Assembly: GCF_018476525.1 (NCBI RefSeq)
Contig: NZ_JAHCST010000037.1
Coordinates: forward strand, 1 to 64,000
DNA length: 64,000 bases
Origin: Acrocarpospora catenulata
Lineage (GTDB): Bacteria > Actinomycetota > Actinomycetes > Streptosporangiales > Streptosporangiaceae
Reading direction: 5' to 3'
Of the stretch, positions 31,856 through 37,157 are shown one piece after another. The notes beneath the pieces are model-generated. The model was not told the DNA's origin. It saw nothing but the letters and a program-made list of their open reading frames with translations, and did no database searches. The translations under genes were made by a program, and so were the position numbers. Numbering within the stretch: the first letter of the stretch is position 1; each line of letters starts with the position of its first letter.

Positions 31856-32935
31856 TCAGCGCGTCTGTGTCTTCTGGTCGCGGAGCGCCTGCTCGACGGC
31901 TTCCCGTACGCGGGCGTCCTCACGCTCCTTCCGTCCCGCGCGCCTACGGCGTACGAGCAGGATCGACCCCACGATGACCACGACCAGGACGACGAACAGC
32001 AGCACCTGCGTCCACGGGACGGCCCAGGCGTCCGCCGAGGCCAGGACCGGCTCAAGCGAGGTGGTGGAGCCCGACGCGTCGGTGAGCAACGGCATCAGGA
32101 TCGTGGTCGCGCCCAGCCTGACCGCGGGCGCCACGCCGTGGACGGGCACCGTCATCTTCCAGCTCTCCCCCGGGAGCAGCTCCGGCGGCGCGGGGATCTC
32201 GCCCGCGTCCGCCGACAGCCACCCGAAGGGGCCCGCGACCGACATCGTCTGCTTGGCCGACAGGATGGCGTTGCCGGTGTTGTGGATCGTGTAGCTGATG
32301 GTGGCGTCGCCCGAGCCGAAGGGGTTGAACGAGCCGGAGTAGTCCATGCGCAGGTCCTCGATCGCGAGGCTCGGCTTGAGCTCGCCGCTGACCCGCAGCT
32401 TGATCCGGACACCGAGGCGCCGGTCCACGTTGATGCCCTCGGCGGTGTCGGACTGCGTCAGAGAGGTGAGGATGCCGCCCATGTAGTCGCCGGGCGGGGC
32501 GTTGTCCGGAACGCTGACCTTGAAGGGGATCTTGACGGACTTCCCTGGCTGGATCGCGACGCTGTCGCGGTCGGCGTGCACCCAGGCGCCGATTCCGACG
32601 GACTTCTTGTCCTTGGGGAACAGATCGAGCTGGCCCGTGTCGGTGGTGAAGCCGTCGGCGGCGTAGACGGCGAGGGTGACCGGAGCCTTGCCGCGGTTGG
32701 CGACGACCAGGGCGTCTTCAAGCAGCCCACCGTCGTTGACGACATAGTTGAAGCTGGACCGGTCGGCGCCGTAGCTGTTGGAGTCGGTCCTGACCGTCCA
32801 GGCGACCTCGCCGTCGTCGGCCAGCGCGGGGCCGGCCTGCAGGCCGGTGACCGCGCAGGCGGCGAGCAGGGCCAGCGCGGCGGTACGGACGAGGGCGGCG
32901 ACGGCAGTGGTCCGGCGCGTTGCGAGGGCGTGCAT
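31856..32935 (-). CDS. DUF916-type WxL-interacting membrane protein
   Basis: A 359-residue exported protein with an N-terminal signal peptide, two immunoglobulin-like beta domains (WTVRTDSNSYGADRSSFNYV, ALVVANRGKAPVTLAVYAADGF, VPDNAPPGDYMGGILTSL), a C-terminal membrane helix (VPWTQVLLFVVLVVVIVGSILLV) and a basic cytoplasmic tail. This is the DUF916 layout of proteins that bind WxL surface domains and peptidoglycan in low-GC Gram-positives. It is encoded next to a metallophosphatase with a WxL-like tail, which supports a surface-anchoring pair. Confidence 0.8.
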   Translation of the reverse strand: MHALATRRTTAVAALVRTAALALLAACAVTGLQAGPALADDGEVAWTVRTDSNSYGADRSSFNYVVNDGGLLEDALVVANRGKAPVTLAVYAADGFTTDTGQLDLFPKDKKSVGIGAWVHADRDSVAIQPGKSVKIPFKVSVPDNAPPGDYMGGILTSLTQSDTAEGINVDRRLGVRIKLRVSGELKPSLAIEDLRMDYSGSFNPFGSGDATISYTIHNTGNAILSAKQTMSVAGPFGWLSADAGEIPAPPELLPGESWKMTVPVHGVAPAVRLGATTILMPLLTDASGSTTSLEPVLASADAWAVPWTQVLLFVVLVVVIVGSILLVRRRRAGRKEREDARVREAVEQALRDQKTQTR

Positions 32936-32980
32936 CTTGGGATCCTCGGGCGATCTTGGGCGGGGTCTGGAACGAGCCAG

Positions 32981-33008
32981 GGGGTGGGCACCTTCCGGTG
33001 CCCACCCC
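32981..33008. terminator. Perfect hairpin between metallophosphatase and DUF916 genes
   Basis: GGGGTGGGCACC (32981-32992) pairs with GGTGCCCACCCC (32997-33008) around TTCC. It lies 20 bp past the phosphatase stop and about 45 bp before the DUF916 start on the minus strand. It could end the phosphatase transcript or reduce read-through into DUF916. Confidence 0.8.
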
Positions 33009-33028
33009 GCCGGGTCAAACGGGTCCGG

Positions 33029-35002
33029 TCAGCTGCTCAGCGCAGTGATCGTGAGGGTCGCGCGGTAGCCACCCTTCTCGACGCTGCCCGGGATCTTCAG
33101 GGCCAGGTCGGCGCCCAGCTTGGCGACGCCCTTGGGGTGGCCCTGGTTGGCCCAGCCGAGTCCGCGCGAGACGGACAGGCCCGTGCCGTGGTCGTCGTAG
33201 GCCGAAGCCACCGCGCCGCTGGCGAAGGCGCCGGCGCCGTCCTCGAGCACCCGCGGCGTCCAACCGAGGTAGGCGCCGGAGAAGGTCTTGGCGGCGTCCT
33301 TGAAGTCACTCACGCTGGCCGAGATCGACCAGGGCGCGAGCGAGCGGCGGTTGTCCGACACGACGATCGGGTTGATCTGGCCGGTGGCCTCGAAGAAGTT
33401 GCCGTCGTGGTCCACGGCGGTGCCGAGGTCCACCAGGCCGTTGTAGCCGTCGATCGTCCAGCCGAACTCGCCCGGAGCGGCGTTGGGCACGCTGACCTGG
33501 AGGGCCTGGCCGTCGCCGTTGTACGGGTGGATGGTCACCTTGTCGACGAGCGAGCCGACCGGCTGCCCCTCAGGGGTGTTGGTGCAGGAGAGGCCACGCT
33601 CGACCGCCGCGTTCGGAGCCGCGCAGGTGCCGCTCCGGATGTTCTCCACGACGAGCTTGTCCTTGCGCACGCCGACCTTGACGTAGGTCCGGACGTGCTC
33701 CTGGTTCTGGACCGAGTTGTACCAGTAGCTGTTCGGGTTCAGCGGGTCGGCGCCGTTGCCCGCGCCGCTGCTGGCGCTGCTGTCCGGCTTGGTGATGTCG
33801 TAGTACTTCGAGCCCGAGGCCGAGTTCGACGTCACGTACAGCACGCCGCCAGGACCGGGGTACACCTCGGCGGCGCCGGGCTGCTCGTCCGGGTTCGCCT
33901 TCTGGCTGTTCTTGATCAGGTAGCTGCGGGAGTACGCGTGGTCGTGGCCCTGCAGCACCAGGTCGACGCCGAGGTTGGAGAAGGCGGTCGGGAAGTCGAC
34001 CCGGCGCACCTTGGCGTCGCTGTCCTTGGCGTGGCTGGCCGGCGAGTAGATCGCGTGGTGGAAGACGAGCACCTTCCACTTGGCCTCGGAGCCGTGCTGG
34101 TTGATGACATCGGTCACGTACGCGACGTGCGCCGCGTCGCCGCCGCCACCCTGGGAGGTGGCGTAGCTGTTGCTGTTGATGTCGATGAACAGCGTGTCCT
34201 TGTAGATGAACCAGTAGTTCCCGCCGGAGCTGTTCCCGTTCGGGTTCCCGTTGGAGTACAGCGGACCCGACCGGTCGTTGTTCGGGATGGTGAAGTGCTG
34301 CTCGTACGCCTTGCTGCCGACGTCGTGGTTGCCGATGGTGGCGACCCACGGGTACTGACGCAGCTTGTCGGGGGCGAGGAAGGCGTTCCACTGGCTCTCG
34401 GTGCCGGCGGTCTCGACCTGGTCACCACCCGACACCAGCAGCTCGGAGTCCGGGTTGGCCGCGAGCGCGACGTCCAGGGTGTCCTGCCAACCGGCCTGGT
34501 CCTTCGGCACGTCGCCGGAGGAGCCGATCTGCGGGTCGCCGAAGAACAGGAAGTCGTAGTCGCCCTCGAAGTCCTGCGTCTTGAAGGAGTACGTCGAGGA
34601 CCAGTTGCCGTCGGAGCCGACGCGGTAGGAGTACGCCGTCTGCTCCTGCAGGTTGGAGATCGTCGCGTGCCGGTTGAAGCCACCGCTGGAGGCGATGTTC
34701 GCCGCGCCGGCGGCGTCGAAGGTGAGGGCGTCGGCCGGGAACTCGCCGTTGACGAGCTTCGCGGTCGGGGCCAGCTGGACCTGCTGCGCGTTGTCGGCCG
34801 AGGAGTACCAGGTCACGGTGCGCTGGGCCTCGTTGGCGCCGACCCCGAGGATGATGCCGCTGAACGTGGCGGCGTCGGCGCTCGCGGGGGTCCCCATGCC
34901 GCTGCCGAAGGCCACGGCCAAGCCCAGAAGCGCCGCGGTGGCCCCTGCGGCCACGCGGCGCCGTACCAGGCCGGGAGCCTGCGGTGAGGTGCCTAATGTC
35001 AT
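33029..35002 (-). CDS. Secreted purple-acid-phosphatase-like metallophosphoesterase with WxL-like C-terminus
   Basis: A 657-residue exported protein. After a signal peptide (RRRVAAGATAALLGLAVAFG) comes a fibronectin-like N-domain, then the calcineurin phosphoesterase core with all metal-ligand blocks: FFGDPQIG, SGGDQVE, IGNHDVG, VFHHAIYS and QGHDHAYSR. The last about 110 residues (VVSDNRRSLAPWSISASVSDF ... GSVEKGGYRATLTITALS) resemble a WxL surface-attachment domain. It probably hydrolyses phosphomonoesters at the cell wall. ATG 35002 has an AAAAGGA site; the longer frame to 35044 starts in non-conserved sequence. It lies between a HupE/UreJ gene and a DUF916 gene. Confidence 0.88.
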   Translation of the reverse strand: MTLGTSPQAPGLVRRRVAAGATAALLGLAVAFGSGMGTPASADAATFSGIILGVGANEAQRTVTWYSSADNAQQVQLAPTAKLVNGEFPADALTFDAAGAANIASSGGFNRHATISNLQEQTAYSYRVGSDGNWSSTYSFKTQDFEGDYDFLFFGDPQIGSSGDVPKDQAGWQDTLDVALAANPDSELLVSGGDQVETAGTESQWNAFLAPDKLRQYPWVATIGNHDVGSKAYEQHFTIPNNDRSGPLYSNGNPNGNSSGGNYWFIYKDTLFIDINSNSYATSQGGGGDAAHVAYVTDVINQHGSEAKWKVLVFHHAIYSPASHAKDSDAKVRRVDFPTAFSNLGVDLVLQGHDHAYSRSYLIKNSQKANPDEQPGAAEVYPGPGGVLYVTSNSASGSKYYDITKPDSSASSGAGNGADPLNPNSYWYNSVQNQEHVRTYVKVGVRKDKLVVENIRSGTCAAPNAAVERGLSCTNTPEGQPVGSLVDKVTIHPYNGDGQALQVSVPNAAPGEFGWTIDGYNGLVDLGTAVDHDGNFFEATGQINPIVVSDNRRSLAPWSISASVSDFKDAAKTFSGAYLGWTPRVLEDGAGAFASGAVASAYDDHGTGLSVSRGLGWANQGHPKGVAKLGADLALKIPGSVEKGGYRATLTITALSS

Positions 35003-35123
35003 GGTTAAAGTCCTTTTTGTACCTGTACGTGCAGGAAGCGGCATTCAAGGTCGCGCCGTCCGGTGAACCGACCGTAAATGCCCGATTTCTGGCTAATGGA
35101 ATGTCCTAAAAGACCTTGCGATC

Positions 35124-36314
35124 TCAGGACCCGAGCACCCGCTCGACGAACCAGAACAGCCCCATGGCGGACACGCCCGCGGAAACCACACCCGTCGCCC
35201 AGAGACCGGCCCGCGGCGCACGGCGCCGCAACACGCTGAGCAGCGGGAAGAGCGCTGCGATGAGCACCAGTTGAACGACCTCGATACCGACGTTGAACAC
35301 CAGCAAGGACCAGAGCAGGGTCCACGACCACGCCTCGTCGATCCCCAGCGCGCCCGCGAAGCCCAGCCCGTGAACGAGGCCGAAACAGAACACGACCCCG
35401 AGGCGCGTCCAGCCCGAACGGTCCAGGGCGAAGTGACCGCGGCTCAACGTCTCGATCTCGCCGGCATGGCCGCCGCGCCGCCAGATCCGCCACAGGTGCC
35501 AACCGGCGACCACGGCGATCGACAACGCGATGACGGGCTCCACCAGGCTCGCGGGCACCTCCACCAGACCGAGGGCGGCGAGCATGAACGTCACCGAGTG
35601 CGCCAGGGTGAAGCTGGTGGCCACCAGCACGATCTCGCGCAGCCGCCGTGACCCGGCGATGAGCGCCAGCAGGAACAAGACGTGGTCGATCCCGAACAGC
35701 AGGTGTTCGGCACCCAGCAGGAAGAACTCCCAGAACCGCTCGTACCAGGCCTGACCAGTCGAGAAGGACGGGCGAGCGGCATCGAGCGCGGCACTGCCCG
35801 AGCGGCCGTCGAGTTCATAGGTGACGATCGTCTTGGTGTCCTTGACGTACTTCTCGGCGTCGGGAAACAGCCCGCTCCGCACCTCGTGATCGTCACTCCG
35901 CTCCGGACAGGCCCAGTCGAGCAGCAGAACGGCGTACGGCACATTCTCCCGCTCGGCGATCGTGAACTCGCCTGCCTGGGCCGGCGTGCAGCCCCTGACC
36001 GAGAAGCGCTTGGTGACATACGTGACGGCCGACGCCGCATGCGCGTTGAGCGCCGCGGCCTGTCCCTCGGTGTCACCGGCCTCGAATGCGGGGATTCCTG
36101 CCTTGAAGAGGGGATCATTACCCTCGAAGTCGGCGGTGGAGACGACGAAGAGGTCGTACTCGAGCTCCAGTTTGGTCCGCAGGTGACCCTCGTCCGCGGT
36201 GAGGTGGACGTACACGGTCGAGGTGAACCCGTGGGCGAGCGCCGGCCCGGCGCCCAGAAGAACGATCACCGCCGCGATGATCCCGACGAGGACACGGCGG
36301 ACCCGTTGTGACAT
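35124..36314 (-). CDS. HupE/UreJ-type membrane protein with large exported N-domain
   Basis: A 396-residue protein: signal peptide (VGIIAAVIVLLGAGPALAHG), about 160 extracytoplasmic residues with a Cys pair (RGCTPAQ, DWACPER), then a C-terminal HupE/UreJ_2 domain of about six to seven helices. It has the hallmark motifs FFLLGAEHLLFGIDHVLFLLAL and CFGLVHGLGFAGAL, rich in His and Asp in membranes. Related proteins are thought to move nickel or cobalt, but many long versions are uncharacterised. It is the first gene before the metallophosphatase, so metal supply to that enzyme is an attractive guess. Confidence 0.85.
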   Translation of the reverse strand: MSQRVRRVLVGIIAAVIVLLGAGPALAHGFTSTVYVHLTADEGHLRTKLELEYDLFVVSTADFEGNDPLFKAGIPAFEAGDTEGQAAALNAHAASAVTYVTKRFSVRGCTPAQAGEFTIAERENVPYAVLLLDWACPERSDDHEVRSGLFPDAEKYVKDTKTIVTYELDGRSGSAALDAARPSFSTGQAWYERFWEFFLLGAEHLLFGIDHVLFLLALIAGSRRLREIVLVATSFTLAHSVTFMLAALGLVEVPASLVEPVIALSIAVVAGWHLWRIWRRGGHAGEIETLSRGHFALDRSGWTRLGVVFCFGLVHGLGFAGALGIDEAWSWTLLWSLLVFNVGIEVVQLVLIAALFPLLSVLRRRAPRAGLWATGVVSAGVSAMGLFWFVERVLGS

Positions 36315-36485
36315 GTGGCTCCTTAAGTTGCCAGAGCACGTTCCACCTCACGGGTGAATCCCAGCCGTCCCAACGGCGAACTACAGGAAAAATAACCCCA
36401 TAACTACCTCTCAGCCTCAAATCGGGAGGAAACGGGATAGGAGGATGTACGCGCACCACCCGCTACACCTCGGAGGACGATCCCC

Positions 36486-37157
36486 TTGCGCCCCCCGCTT
36501 CGGACCGTTGCCACGCTGGCCGCGACCGCCGCGCTGGTCACCGGATGCGGCTCCGGCGGCGACTGGTCCCAACCGCACGCCAAGCCCAGCGCCATCGGCA
36601 CTCTCGCCCCGGGTTTCATCGCCCCCTCCACCACGCCCGTCCCCGAGGCGACCATCACGCCACGGCCCGGCTCCTGGAGCGACGTCCACCCGTCGAAGGA
36701 CTACCGCGTGGTCCTGCTCACCACCGGTGACGACCAGCCCACCAGGACCCTCGTGGCGGCGGTCGAGGAGTGGGCGGAGGAGGAGGACGTCGATCTCAGA
36801 ACAGTCGTCGCCGACCACCCGTACGACCTCGTGCCCAGCATCACCGAGGCCATCGACATGGGCCCCGACCTCATCGTCAGCGCGGGCAACGGCTTCGTCG
36901 ACCCTCTGGCCCTGGTCAGCCCGAGCCACCTCGCGCAGCAGTTTCTCGTCGTGGGGGCGGAACTGGCCGAGCCCACCCACAACGTCACGGCCGTCGACTG
37001 GTCCGGCGCGTCGTTCCGCGGCGAAGGGCTCGGCATGTCCTCGACGTACGAGCCCGCGTCGTTCACCCCCGCCCGCTGCGCGGCCGCCGTGAGGGCAGGC
37101 GTCGCGGCCGTACTCAACGACCTGACCGGGATCGTGATCTGGCTCGACGAAGTCTGA
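36486..37157 (+). CDS. Lipoprotein with substrate-binding-like domain
   Basis: A 223-residue exported protein with a TTG start at 36486 behind a CGGAGGA site. The signal peptide ends in a lipobox (ALVTGC). A Pro/Thr-rich linker of about 45 residues leads to an alpha/beta domain (YRVVLLTTGDDQPTRTLVAAVEEWA, DLVPSITEAIDMGPDLIVSAGN, QQFLVVGAEL) similar to one lobe of BMP-type periplasmic-binding proteins. It is shorter than a complete binding protein. No transporter genes adjoin it. Confidence 0.7.
   Translation: MRPPLRTVATLAATAALVTGCGSGGDWSQPHAKPSAIGTLAPGFIAPSTTPVPEATITPRPGSWSDVHPSKDYRVVLLTTGDDQPTRTLVAAVEEWAEEEDVDLRTVVADHPYDLVPSITEAIDMGPDLIVSAGNGFVDPLALVSPSHLAQQFLVVGAELAEPTHNVTAVDWSGASFRGEGLGMSSTYEPASFTPARCAAAVRAGVAAVLNDLTGIVIWLDEV

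Follow-up and report, generated by a model that had tools for sequence, protein, structure and literature searches.

How might an actinomycete keep a secreted enzyme at its surface? The question is raised by a locus in Acrocarpospora catenulata, within a stretch of 64,000 nucleotides (contig NZ_JAHCST010000037.1, positions 1 to 64,000 of the forward strand) that we call the window. Three genes follow each other from head to tail on the minus strand, for a HupE/UreJ permease, a metallophosphatase and a DUF916 protein; they had been proposed in a sequence-only reading of the window, and all were recovered at the same positions, with Pfam in agreement. We consider it probable, at roughly 0.7, that the locus encodes a cell-surface display unit, in which the DUF916 protein, anchored in the bacterium's own membrane, captures a WxL-like tail of the phosphatase and so keeps this enzyme at the surface. 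The features on which this proposal draws are the following.

35124..36314, minus strand: HupE/UreJ_2 permease gene (PF13795)
33029..35044, minus strand: metallophosphatase gene (671-amino-acid frame; likely start ATG at 35002)
33032..33556, minus strand: WxL-like C-terminal domain of the phosphatase (residues 497-671 of the 671-amino-acid frame)
31856..32935, minus strand: DUF916 (WxLIP-like) gene (PF06030)
32423..32470, minus strand: candidate WxL-capturing hairpin, residues 156-171 of the DUF916 protein, LTSLTQSDTAEGINVD

The sequence-only reading had noted that the phosphatase C-terminus resembles a WxL domain. When the last 226 residues were searched by themselves, the sole Pfam match at E <= 10 was PF13731 WxL (E 0.01, 16.2 bits). 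A profile of 32 phosphatase tails matched seven annotated Firmicute WxL proteins at 84% (E 7.6e-6), and one of 22 diverse actinobacterial tails matched the same seven at 96.7% (E 3.4e-10), with 144 columns aligned and the motifs in register; two control comparisons gave 3.1% and 0.1%. Diagnostic residues described for WxL domains are a hydrophobic residue at W-10, Asp at W-8 and Arg at W-6 (Hassan and Williamson, PMC9772566), and the tail carries V562, D564, R566 and W572 in these places (671-amino-acid frame). Its first motif is W572-S-I, with Ile replacing the Leu of W-x-L. The strict first-motif pattern occurs in all 32 phosphatase tails and 20 of the 22 diverse tails, but in only two of the seven Firmicute rows. 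WxL is also the Pfam family matched by most of the diverse tails (11/22 at E <= 1). As is expected of WxL proteins, the tail is C-terminal on a predicted secreted protein (signal peptide judged by eye) and a DUF916 gene is in the cluster.

Genomic context, which is independent of the profile, points the same way. In 296 genomes drawn from the phylum, 32 places match PF13731 at E <= 0.1; 17 of them are within 3 kb of a PF06030 place, 14 of these upstream on the same strand. Of the 26 places that miss the curated cut-off, 11 are so placed. The WxL resemblance is thus more than chance. By its profile match and diagnostic residues, its recurrent position and the fold of its partner (below), the tail is homologous to WxL domains, and the resemblance seen earlier is upheld to that extent. 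It is a divergent single-motif relative as predicted from its residues, and not a canonical member, because the second WxL tryptophan is absent; single-sequence scores are also weak. One WxL-bearing gene was found in the window, not a pair of small and large WxL proteins, and small WxL-like forms are present elsewhere in the same genome.

Is the neighbouring protein a plausible partner for such a tail? It matches PF06030 (WxLIP_PGBD) at E 3e-8 and 34.1 bits, above the cut-off of 27.3, and a profile comparison with six Firmicute WxLIP proteins gave 95.9% (E 5.1e-9) over 172 columns of its first half. DUF3324 had no Pfam match in it at E <= 1, and the NQIDKxxxYFDLK pattern near the WxLIP N-terminus is not present, the aligned stretch being SNSYGADRSSFNYVV. 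A single-protein search of PDB sequences found no credible relative (best E 0.088), and NCBIfam returned weak rows only. The predicted layout comprises a signal peptide, two beta-sandwich domains, a transmembrane helix and an Arg/Lys-rich tail. With a template-free model (predicted local distance difference test, pLDDT, 77.7; helix 308-358), the top Foldseek matches of 350,542 solved chains were 9i25_C (E 9.7e-11) and 9i1y_A (E 1.5e-10), which are, by their entry titles, the Enterococcus faecium WxLIP bound to a long WxL protein and the free WxLIP. After realignment, 9i25_C scored Z 16.8 (231 residues, root-mean-square deviation 4.7, model residues 43-307) and 9i1y_A Z 15.9; next came the fimbrial chaperone CfaA (Z 11.5), then CsuC (10.6) and FimC (10.2), with GH123 N-domains alike. 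As modelled, the protein has the two-domain WxLIP fold. The earlier description of it as a typical DUF916 partner is thus borne out by fold for both halves, but by sequence for the first half alone.

A hydrophobic stretch followed by at least four Lys or Arg residues in 15 is found in 63 of 63 DUF916 homologues, the window's included, and in the six Firmicute WxLIP sequences, too, basic residues follow the helix, to a varying extent. Such a tail fits a predicted anchor in the bacterium's own membrane, not in a host membrane. The WxLIP helix has been proposed to enter the host membrane (PMC10599100), and the actinobacterial Arg/Lys tails bear on which membrane it enters.

A hairpin of the E. 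faecium WxLIP is predicted, in a 2023 model, to enter the WxL domain (PMC10599100). The available text of that paper gives no residue numbers, and the loop of residues 156-171 is taken here as the putative WxL-capturing hairpin, an equation made in this analysis. In the free model of the DUF916 protein, the loop between Ile155 and Arg172 sits between two strands, and residues 162-170 have pLDDT < 50. In the WxL-partnered proteins the loop resembles LTSLTQSDTAEGINVD. By alignment, a loop ending of the form [IVL]-x-[VIL]-[DES] is shared by all 69 DUF916 proteins whose neighbour genes bear a WxL-like domain and by none of five beside tail-less phosphatases, a pattern that was picked after the sequences had been seen and counted over rows that are mostly close relatives; an earlier regular expression had fitted 50 of the 69 loops. 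The loop is also shorter in four of the five. The tail-less group of five (handles beginning with L and G are ours for loci and genomes) consists of four genomes plus the second pair of Planotetraspora locus L076. L136, which is tail-less too, is missing from the loop count and the tree because gene calling yielded no pair there.

Tail-less phosphatases: L133 5630-7159; L139 8045-9817; L134; L137; L076 10467-11999

These phosphatases end in a conserved WLQ (four ends inspected, and the second L076 pair). In a tree of 27 of the 69 WxL-partnered rows and three paralogues, the DUF916 proteins next to them form one clade (support 100/100), and L076 has one DUF916 protein of each kind, clustering by partner type. 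The covariation of loop and partner points to a candidate binding site, for which the tail-less phosphatases and their signature-less DUF916 neighbours constitute a natural experiment.

The gene set is widely conserved. A genome scan gave 63 loci, or 64 counting the window, in Streptomyces, Micromonospora, Actinoplanes, Dactylosporangium, Acrocarpospora, Herbidospora, Planotetraspora, Catellatospora, Cryobacterium and others. The full set of HupE, phosphatase with tail and DUF916 is found, all on the same strand, in 61 of the 64; L070 and L099 lack HupE, and L071 ends before DUF916. In L174, whose phosphatase was identified from its start and tail and not by domain search, a phosphatase-DUF916 pair has no adjoining HupE gene, and HupE is elsewhere in the same genome. 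Starting from the 15 HupE places at >= 56% identity, a phosphatase is found at 12, DUF916 at 11 and the tail at six, with phosphatase and DUF916 but no tail at five; L140 has a phosphatase with other repeats, and DUF916 was not found in that genome. Neither the phosphatase nor DUF916 was matched at eight inspected loci of more distant HupE paralogues (<= 51% identity, L144-L151).

WxL-like domains and DUF916 genes also keep company apart from the phosphatase. Each of the four DUF916 genes in the A. catenulata genome has a WxL-like gene directly upstream, and the genome holds nine WxL-like domains overall. Among DUF916 places outside this genome in the phylum sample, a WxL-like domain is directly upstream at no fewer than 29 of 41 (25 by profile wxlA at E < 0.05; L032, L036, L044 and L069 by PF13731 or profile A6). 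Of 23 genomes in which a WxL-like domain was found, 21 also have PF06030; the association is in part circular, because the seeds of A6 were taken next to DUF916 genes, and among the nine of these genomes that contributed no seed, seven have PF06030. The A6 scan scored at most 12 candidates per genome, so its counts are lower bounds.

A number of results weigh against reading the tail as a captured WxL domain. Its scores of 16.2 and 17.2 bits do not reach the PF13731 cut-off of 25, and it obtained only E 0.21 in a six-frame search of the whole genome with that family. The second WxL tryptophan near the C-terminus is found in none of the 32 phosphatase tails and none of the 22 diverse tails, versus five of the seven Firmicute rows. 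NCBIfam searches with the 22 tails gave single-member hits alone (for example TIGR03773 and TIGR03769), none of them relevant. The model of the tail is only partly confident (pLDDT 73.6, and under 50 at residues 1-18 and 20-39). Searching it against known folds, the test named in the sequence-only reading, gave middling matches headed by pilin-like domains, with a best Z of 7.4 that may reflect a common arrangement; GH123 N-domains and chaperone-usher pilin domains were listed, none at E <= 0.001, and the solved WxL chain 9i25_A was not among the matches listed, which proves nothing by itself. For the DUF916 model, the unrelated Vibrio cholerae protein RbmA is close by Foldseek E-value (3.0e-10), its template-modelling score being 0.25 versus 0.48 and 0.47 for the WxLIP chains. 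In five genomes of the window's family, a HupE-adjacent phosphatase has no tail match and DUF916 is still next to it; in one of the five, G553, profile A6 detects no WxL-like domain. The tail-less group represents one evolutionary event, and the loop pattern carries less weight for having been chosen with the sequences in view. Finally, a directly upstream WxL-like domain is missing at 12 of the 41 DUF916 places (among them L031, whose start is close to the end of a contig), and G036, G159 and G305 have a WxL-like domain and no PF06030 match. Among the PDB matches listed for profiles A4 and A6 there was no WxL chain, and with the Firmicute profile A3 the chain 9i25_A was recovered (E 0.0009).

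The body of the phosphatase matches PF16656 (E 8.2e-17) and PF00149 (E 8.1e-12), and its architecture comprises an N-terminal domain of purple acid phosphatase type, a calcineurin-like catalytic domain and the WxL-like tail. The likely start codon is the ATG at 35002, preceded by AAAAAGGAC; the protein then has 657 amino acids, the numbering of the earlier reading. Its signal peptide, judged by eye, predicts secretion. The dimetal motifs GNH[DE], [FY]HH and GHxH are present in 64 of 64 phosphatases, and a single-protein search of PDB sequences matched purple acid phosphatases; NCBIfam had no family for the protein. Judged by both Pfam families and the dimetal motifs, it is a predicted purple acid phosphatase. 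The metal-binding Tyr of GDxxY is the purple ligand of purple acid phosphatases. This Tyr is present in none of the 64, in which the motif preceding GNH is GDQVE (40), GDHVE (22) or GDQVD (2), and GDxxY strings are found only elsewhere in the frames.

HupE matches PF13795 HupE_UreJ_2 at residues 197-364 (E 2.3e-36), and has a predicted signal peptide, a His after the AxA (ALA|HGF) and an outside domain of ~165 amino acids of the Ang-2 type. The AxA-then-His arrangement at the end of the signal peptide is described as a mark of Ang-2 'anglerases', and HupE/UreJ-2 proteins as permeases (PMC12537917). It occurs in all 62 HupE sequences, the window's included, at a cleavage site that is predicted only. 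With PF13795 and a His directly behind the predicted signal peptide, the window's protein is assigned by sequence to the Ang-2 HupE/UreJ-2 group. A single-protein PDB sequence search found no credible relative (best E 0.63), and NCBIfam had no family for it.

How would these parts work together? The genes, their conserved order, the homology of the tail, the WxLIP-like fold, the helix with charged residues behind it and the way in which the loop varies with the type of partner come from sequence or model, and from them we infer the following. The phosphatase would be exported, and its C-terminal WxL-like domain would be bound by the two-domain DUF916 protein, which would sit in the bacterium's own membrane through its C-terminal helix, oriented with the Arg/Lys-rich tail inside. 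Capture would most likely occur by a strand lent from loop 156-171; this strand donation is suggested by the loop data, the 2023 hairpin model and the likeness, itself middling, that the two partners bear to pilins and to pilus chaperones. The phosphatase would thereby be held in or at the wall and, given the activity and substrate presumed for it, would free phosphate outside. HupE would be a metal-uptake gene that often, though not always, adjoins the phosphatase-DUF916 pair.

The DUF916 protein might instead be a folding or export helper that, like a pilus chaperone, releases the phosphatase, which would then bind wall polymers alone. The fimbrial chaperones CfaA, CsuC and FimC are among the best matches of the DUF916 model after WxLIP, and chaperone-usher pilin domains are among those of the tail model; the E. 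faecium DUF916 domain is reported to be poorly soluble without its partner (PMC10599100), and Lactobacillus brevis WxL proteins to bind cellulose or xylan unaided (PMC9026416). A helix with a charged tail in 63 of 63 homologues is better suited to a lasting tether, and a WxLIP-WxL complex has already been solved, by its entry title, so we regard the release of the phosphatase as unlikely. It is far less probable still that the tail is an ordinary Ig-like or carbohydrate-binding domain, with a neighbouring DUF916 gene that is coincidental or serves another protein. That would agree with a Pfam score under threshold, with generic beta-sandwich fold matches and with the persistence of DUF916 next to tail-less phosphatases, but the controlled profile comparison makes it unlikely, the diagnostic WxL residues are in place, and the position ahead of DUF916 recurs with different passengers.

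A third possibility, that the outside domain of HupE loads metal into the secreted phosphatase and all three proteins form one surface complex, develops the suggestion of the sequence-only reading that HupE supplies the phosphatase with metal. In its favour, the gene set is kept in 61 of 64 loci and the AxAH pattern in 62 of 62 HupE proteins, and the authors of the anglerase study say that Fe2+ binding by Ang-2 may suit metal-dependent neighbour genes (PMC12537917). However, phosphatase-DUF916 pairs occur without HupE alongside in L070, L099 and L174, and HupE occurs without phosphatase or DUF916 in L135, L142 and L143 (L142 being on a short contig). Moreover, the best ligand reported for the Ang-2 domain of a Microbacterium homologue is Cu(II) (PMC12537917). 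Metal supply from HupE is not supported so far, and we judge the three-protein complex improbable, more so than a chaperone that lets go. An Arg-Arg pair (RR) precedes the signal-peptide core in 48 of 64 phosphatases, which could mean export of a folded, metal-loaded enzyme; it says little on this point because HupE shows RR equally (48/62). A display unit of phosphatase and DUF916 protein remains the reading that we prefer.

WxL/WxLIP cell-surface clusters have been described in Lactobacillales and Bacillales (PMC9772566, PMC10599100, PMC1534035). Like them, the locus has a secreted protein with a WxL-type domain at its C-terminus and a helix-bearing DUF916 neighbour, and it shares the first motif and the WxLIP fold. 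Unlike them, it lacks the second Trp and a sequence match to DUF3324, and in place of small and large WxL genes it has a single WxL-bearing gene, with an enzyme as passenger and a high-GC actinomycete as host. Chaperone-usher pili (FimC/FimG, CfaA/CfaE) similarly combine a two-domain partner with an incomplete beta-sandwich, a similarity of fold alone that may be a common arrangement; here, by contrast, the partner has a membrane helix, and no usher turned up, no usher search having been made. The locus also resembles the Ang-2 'anglerase' loci, with a His behind the signal peptide of HupE and metallophosphatase and DUF916 neighbours. That Actinomycetota Ang-2 genes adjoin metallophosphatases and DUF916 genes was reported in October 2025 (PMC12537917), and the neighbourhood is therefore already published. 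In the main text of that paper, all seven occurrences of 'WxL' are in a DUF916 sentence or a reference, and no WxL-like domain on the phosphatase is stated there.

In the open-access literature, judged from titles and the first lines of abstracts, with preprints and most subscription papers outside the scope, we found no report of the WxL-like phosphatase tail, nor any further paper that deals with WxL systems in actinobacteria. A study of the bee gut mentions bifidobacteria and, in its available text, discusses WxL for lactobacilli alone (PMC4449606); neither 'Actinobacteria' nor 'Streptomyces' appears in the available text of PMC10599100. The WxL system is described mainly as a trait of gut-type Bacilli and linked to host binding (PMC9772566, PMC10599100). 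Because the tail of a soil-type actinomycete phosphatase is a distant WxL cousin beside a DUF916 gene, our results suggest that WxL-type surface attachment also works outside gut bacteria. In actinomycetes, for example Streptomyces, Micromonospora and Actinoplanes, the passenger of the same WxL-DUF916 pair is an enzyme, and in other actinobacteria the pair would display other proteins.

Among 17 larger WxL-bearing proteins scanned with Pfam, eight have a recognised passenger and nine have none; the passengers are phosphatase and fn3 (two each) and HtaA, GDPD, peptidase M64 and GH18 (one each). Where peptidase M64 is the passenger (L054), the WxL-bearing genes are behind DUF916, not ahead of it. 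A second architecture consists of an enzyme whose C-terminus is an undescribed domain, ~87 amino acids long, then a small WxL-like gene, often followed by DUF916, and was seen in the A. catenulata genome, in G402, in G206, G237 and G265 of another family, and on a Clavibacter plasmid. The C-terminal domain has the pattern C-x-G ... TPYGSKTV ... AYQSFNTR ... C and is found on secreted proteins.

Loci with the ~87-amino-acid domain: in the A. catenulata genome, for example, L008 489-8455; L009 777-2549 and 3794-7003; L169; L170; also L168 3680-6130

Pfam matched four copies of this domain at E 0.064 at best, and NCBIfam did not match them at E <= 1. With at most 18 candidates scored per genome, the scan gives lower bounds of at least 36 copies in at least seven of the 296 genomes. 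At least ten copies are directly upstream of a WxL-like gene, as checked with 23 of at least 49 WxL-like places, those of the five dock-bearing genomes having any. The domain is possibly a docking domain, whose pairing with a small WxL-like adaptor would be akin to that of dockerin and cohesin. We tentatively suggest, at somewhat less than even odds, a general actinobacterial mode of display, in which a DUF916-tethered, strand-captured single-motif WxL-like domain is either fused to its passenger (phosphatase, GH18, M64, GDPD or HtaA) or joined to it through the ~87-amino-acid dock and the small adaptor.

Some individual loci may be recorded here. At L033 (6634-8142), an HtaA domain (PF04213, E 5e-42) is fused to a WxL-like tail and followed by DUF916. 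L007 of the A. catenulata genome (940-8959) has, as judged by eye, a WxL-like protein, DUF916, related surface proteins, a look-alike of heme/siderophore-type ABC transporters and a sortase-like gene. At L172 of the same genome (7904-8554), the match of a WxL-like gene stops short, and the usual C-terminal end is lacking; the gene is possibly degenerate.

Within the window, a sigma-70 promoter scan gave no match and a terminator scan two, versus 2.3 expected. ARAGORN called a tRNA-Gln at 33671-33754 on the plus strand, inside the phosphatase gene; the call is probably spurious and was set aside because it is antisense to a conserved coding region. Upstream of HupE, GTTCGCC and ATTCACC are found 22 nucleotides apart (36353-36381, minus strand), the consensus among homologues at this place being GTTCGCC and GTTCACC, and GGTTCACC precedes the phosphatase (35062-35069, minus strand). 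Repeats of the GTTCGCC/ATTCACC type are presumably similar to the PhoP boxes of Streptomyces. Best direct-repeat scores upstream of 62 HupE genes, whose scored rows are related to each other, are 10-13 of 14, versus 9-12 for plain shuffles that ignore dinucleotides. We treat the putative phosphate-control (PHO) box upstream of HupE as a lead only, because the window itself scores 10/14 and because of these properties of the shuffles and rows.

One further gene diverges from the locus.

36486..37157, plus strand: divergent lipoprotein-like gene, with weak similarity to Bmp/PnrA substrate-binding proteins

Its match to PF02608 (E 0.0055, 16.2 bits) is under the cut-off of 24.1. By eye, genes resembling it are beside three related loci (L139, L140 and L174), and in L174 the relative adjoins the phosphatase although HupE is not adjacent.

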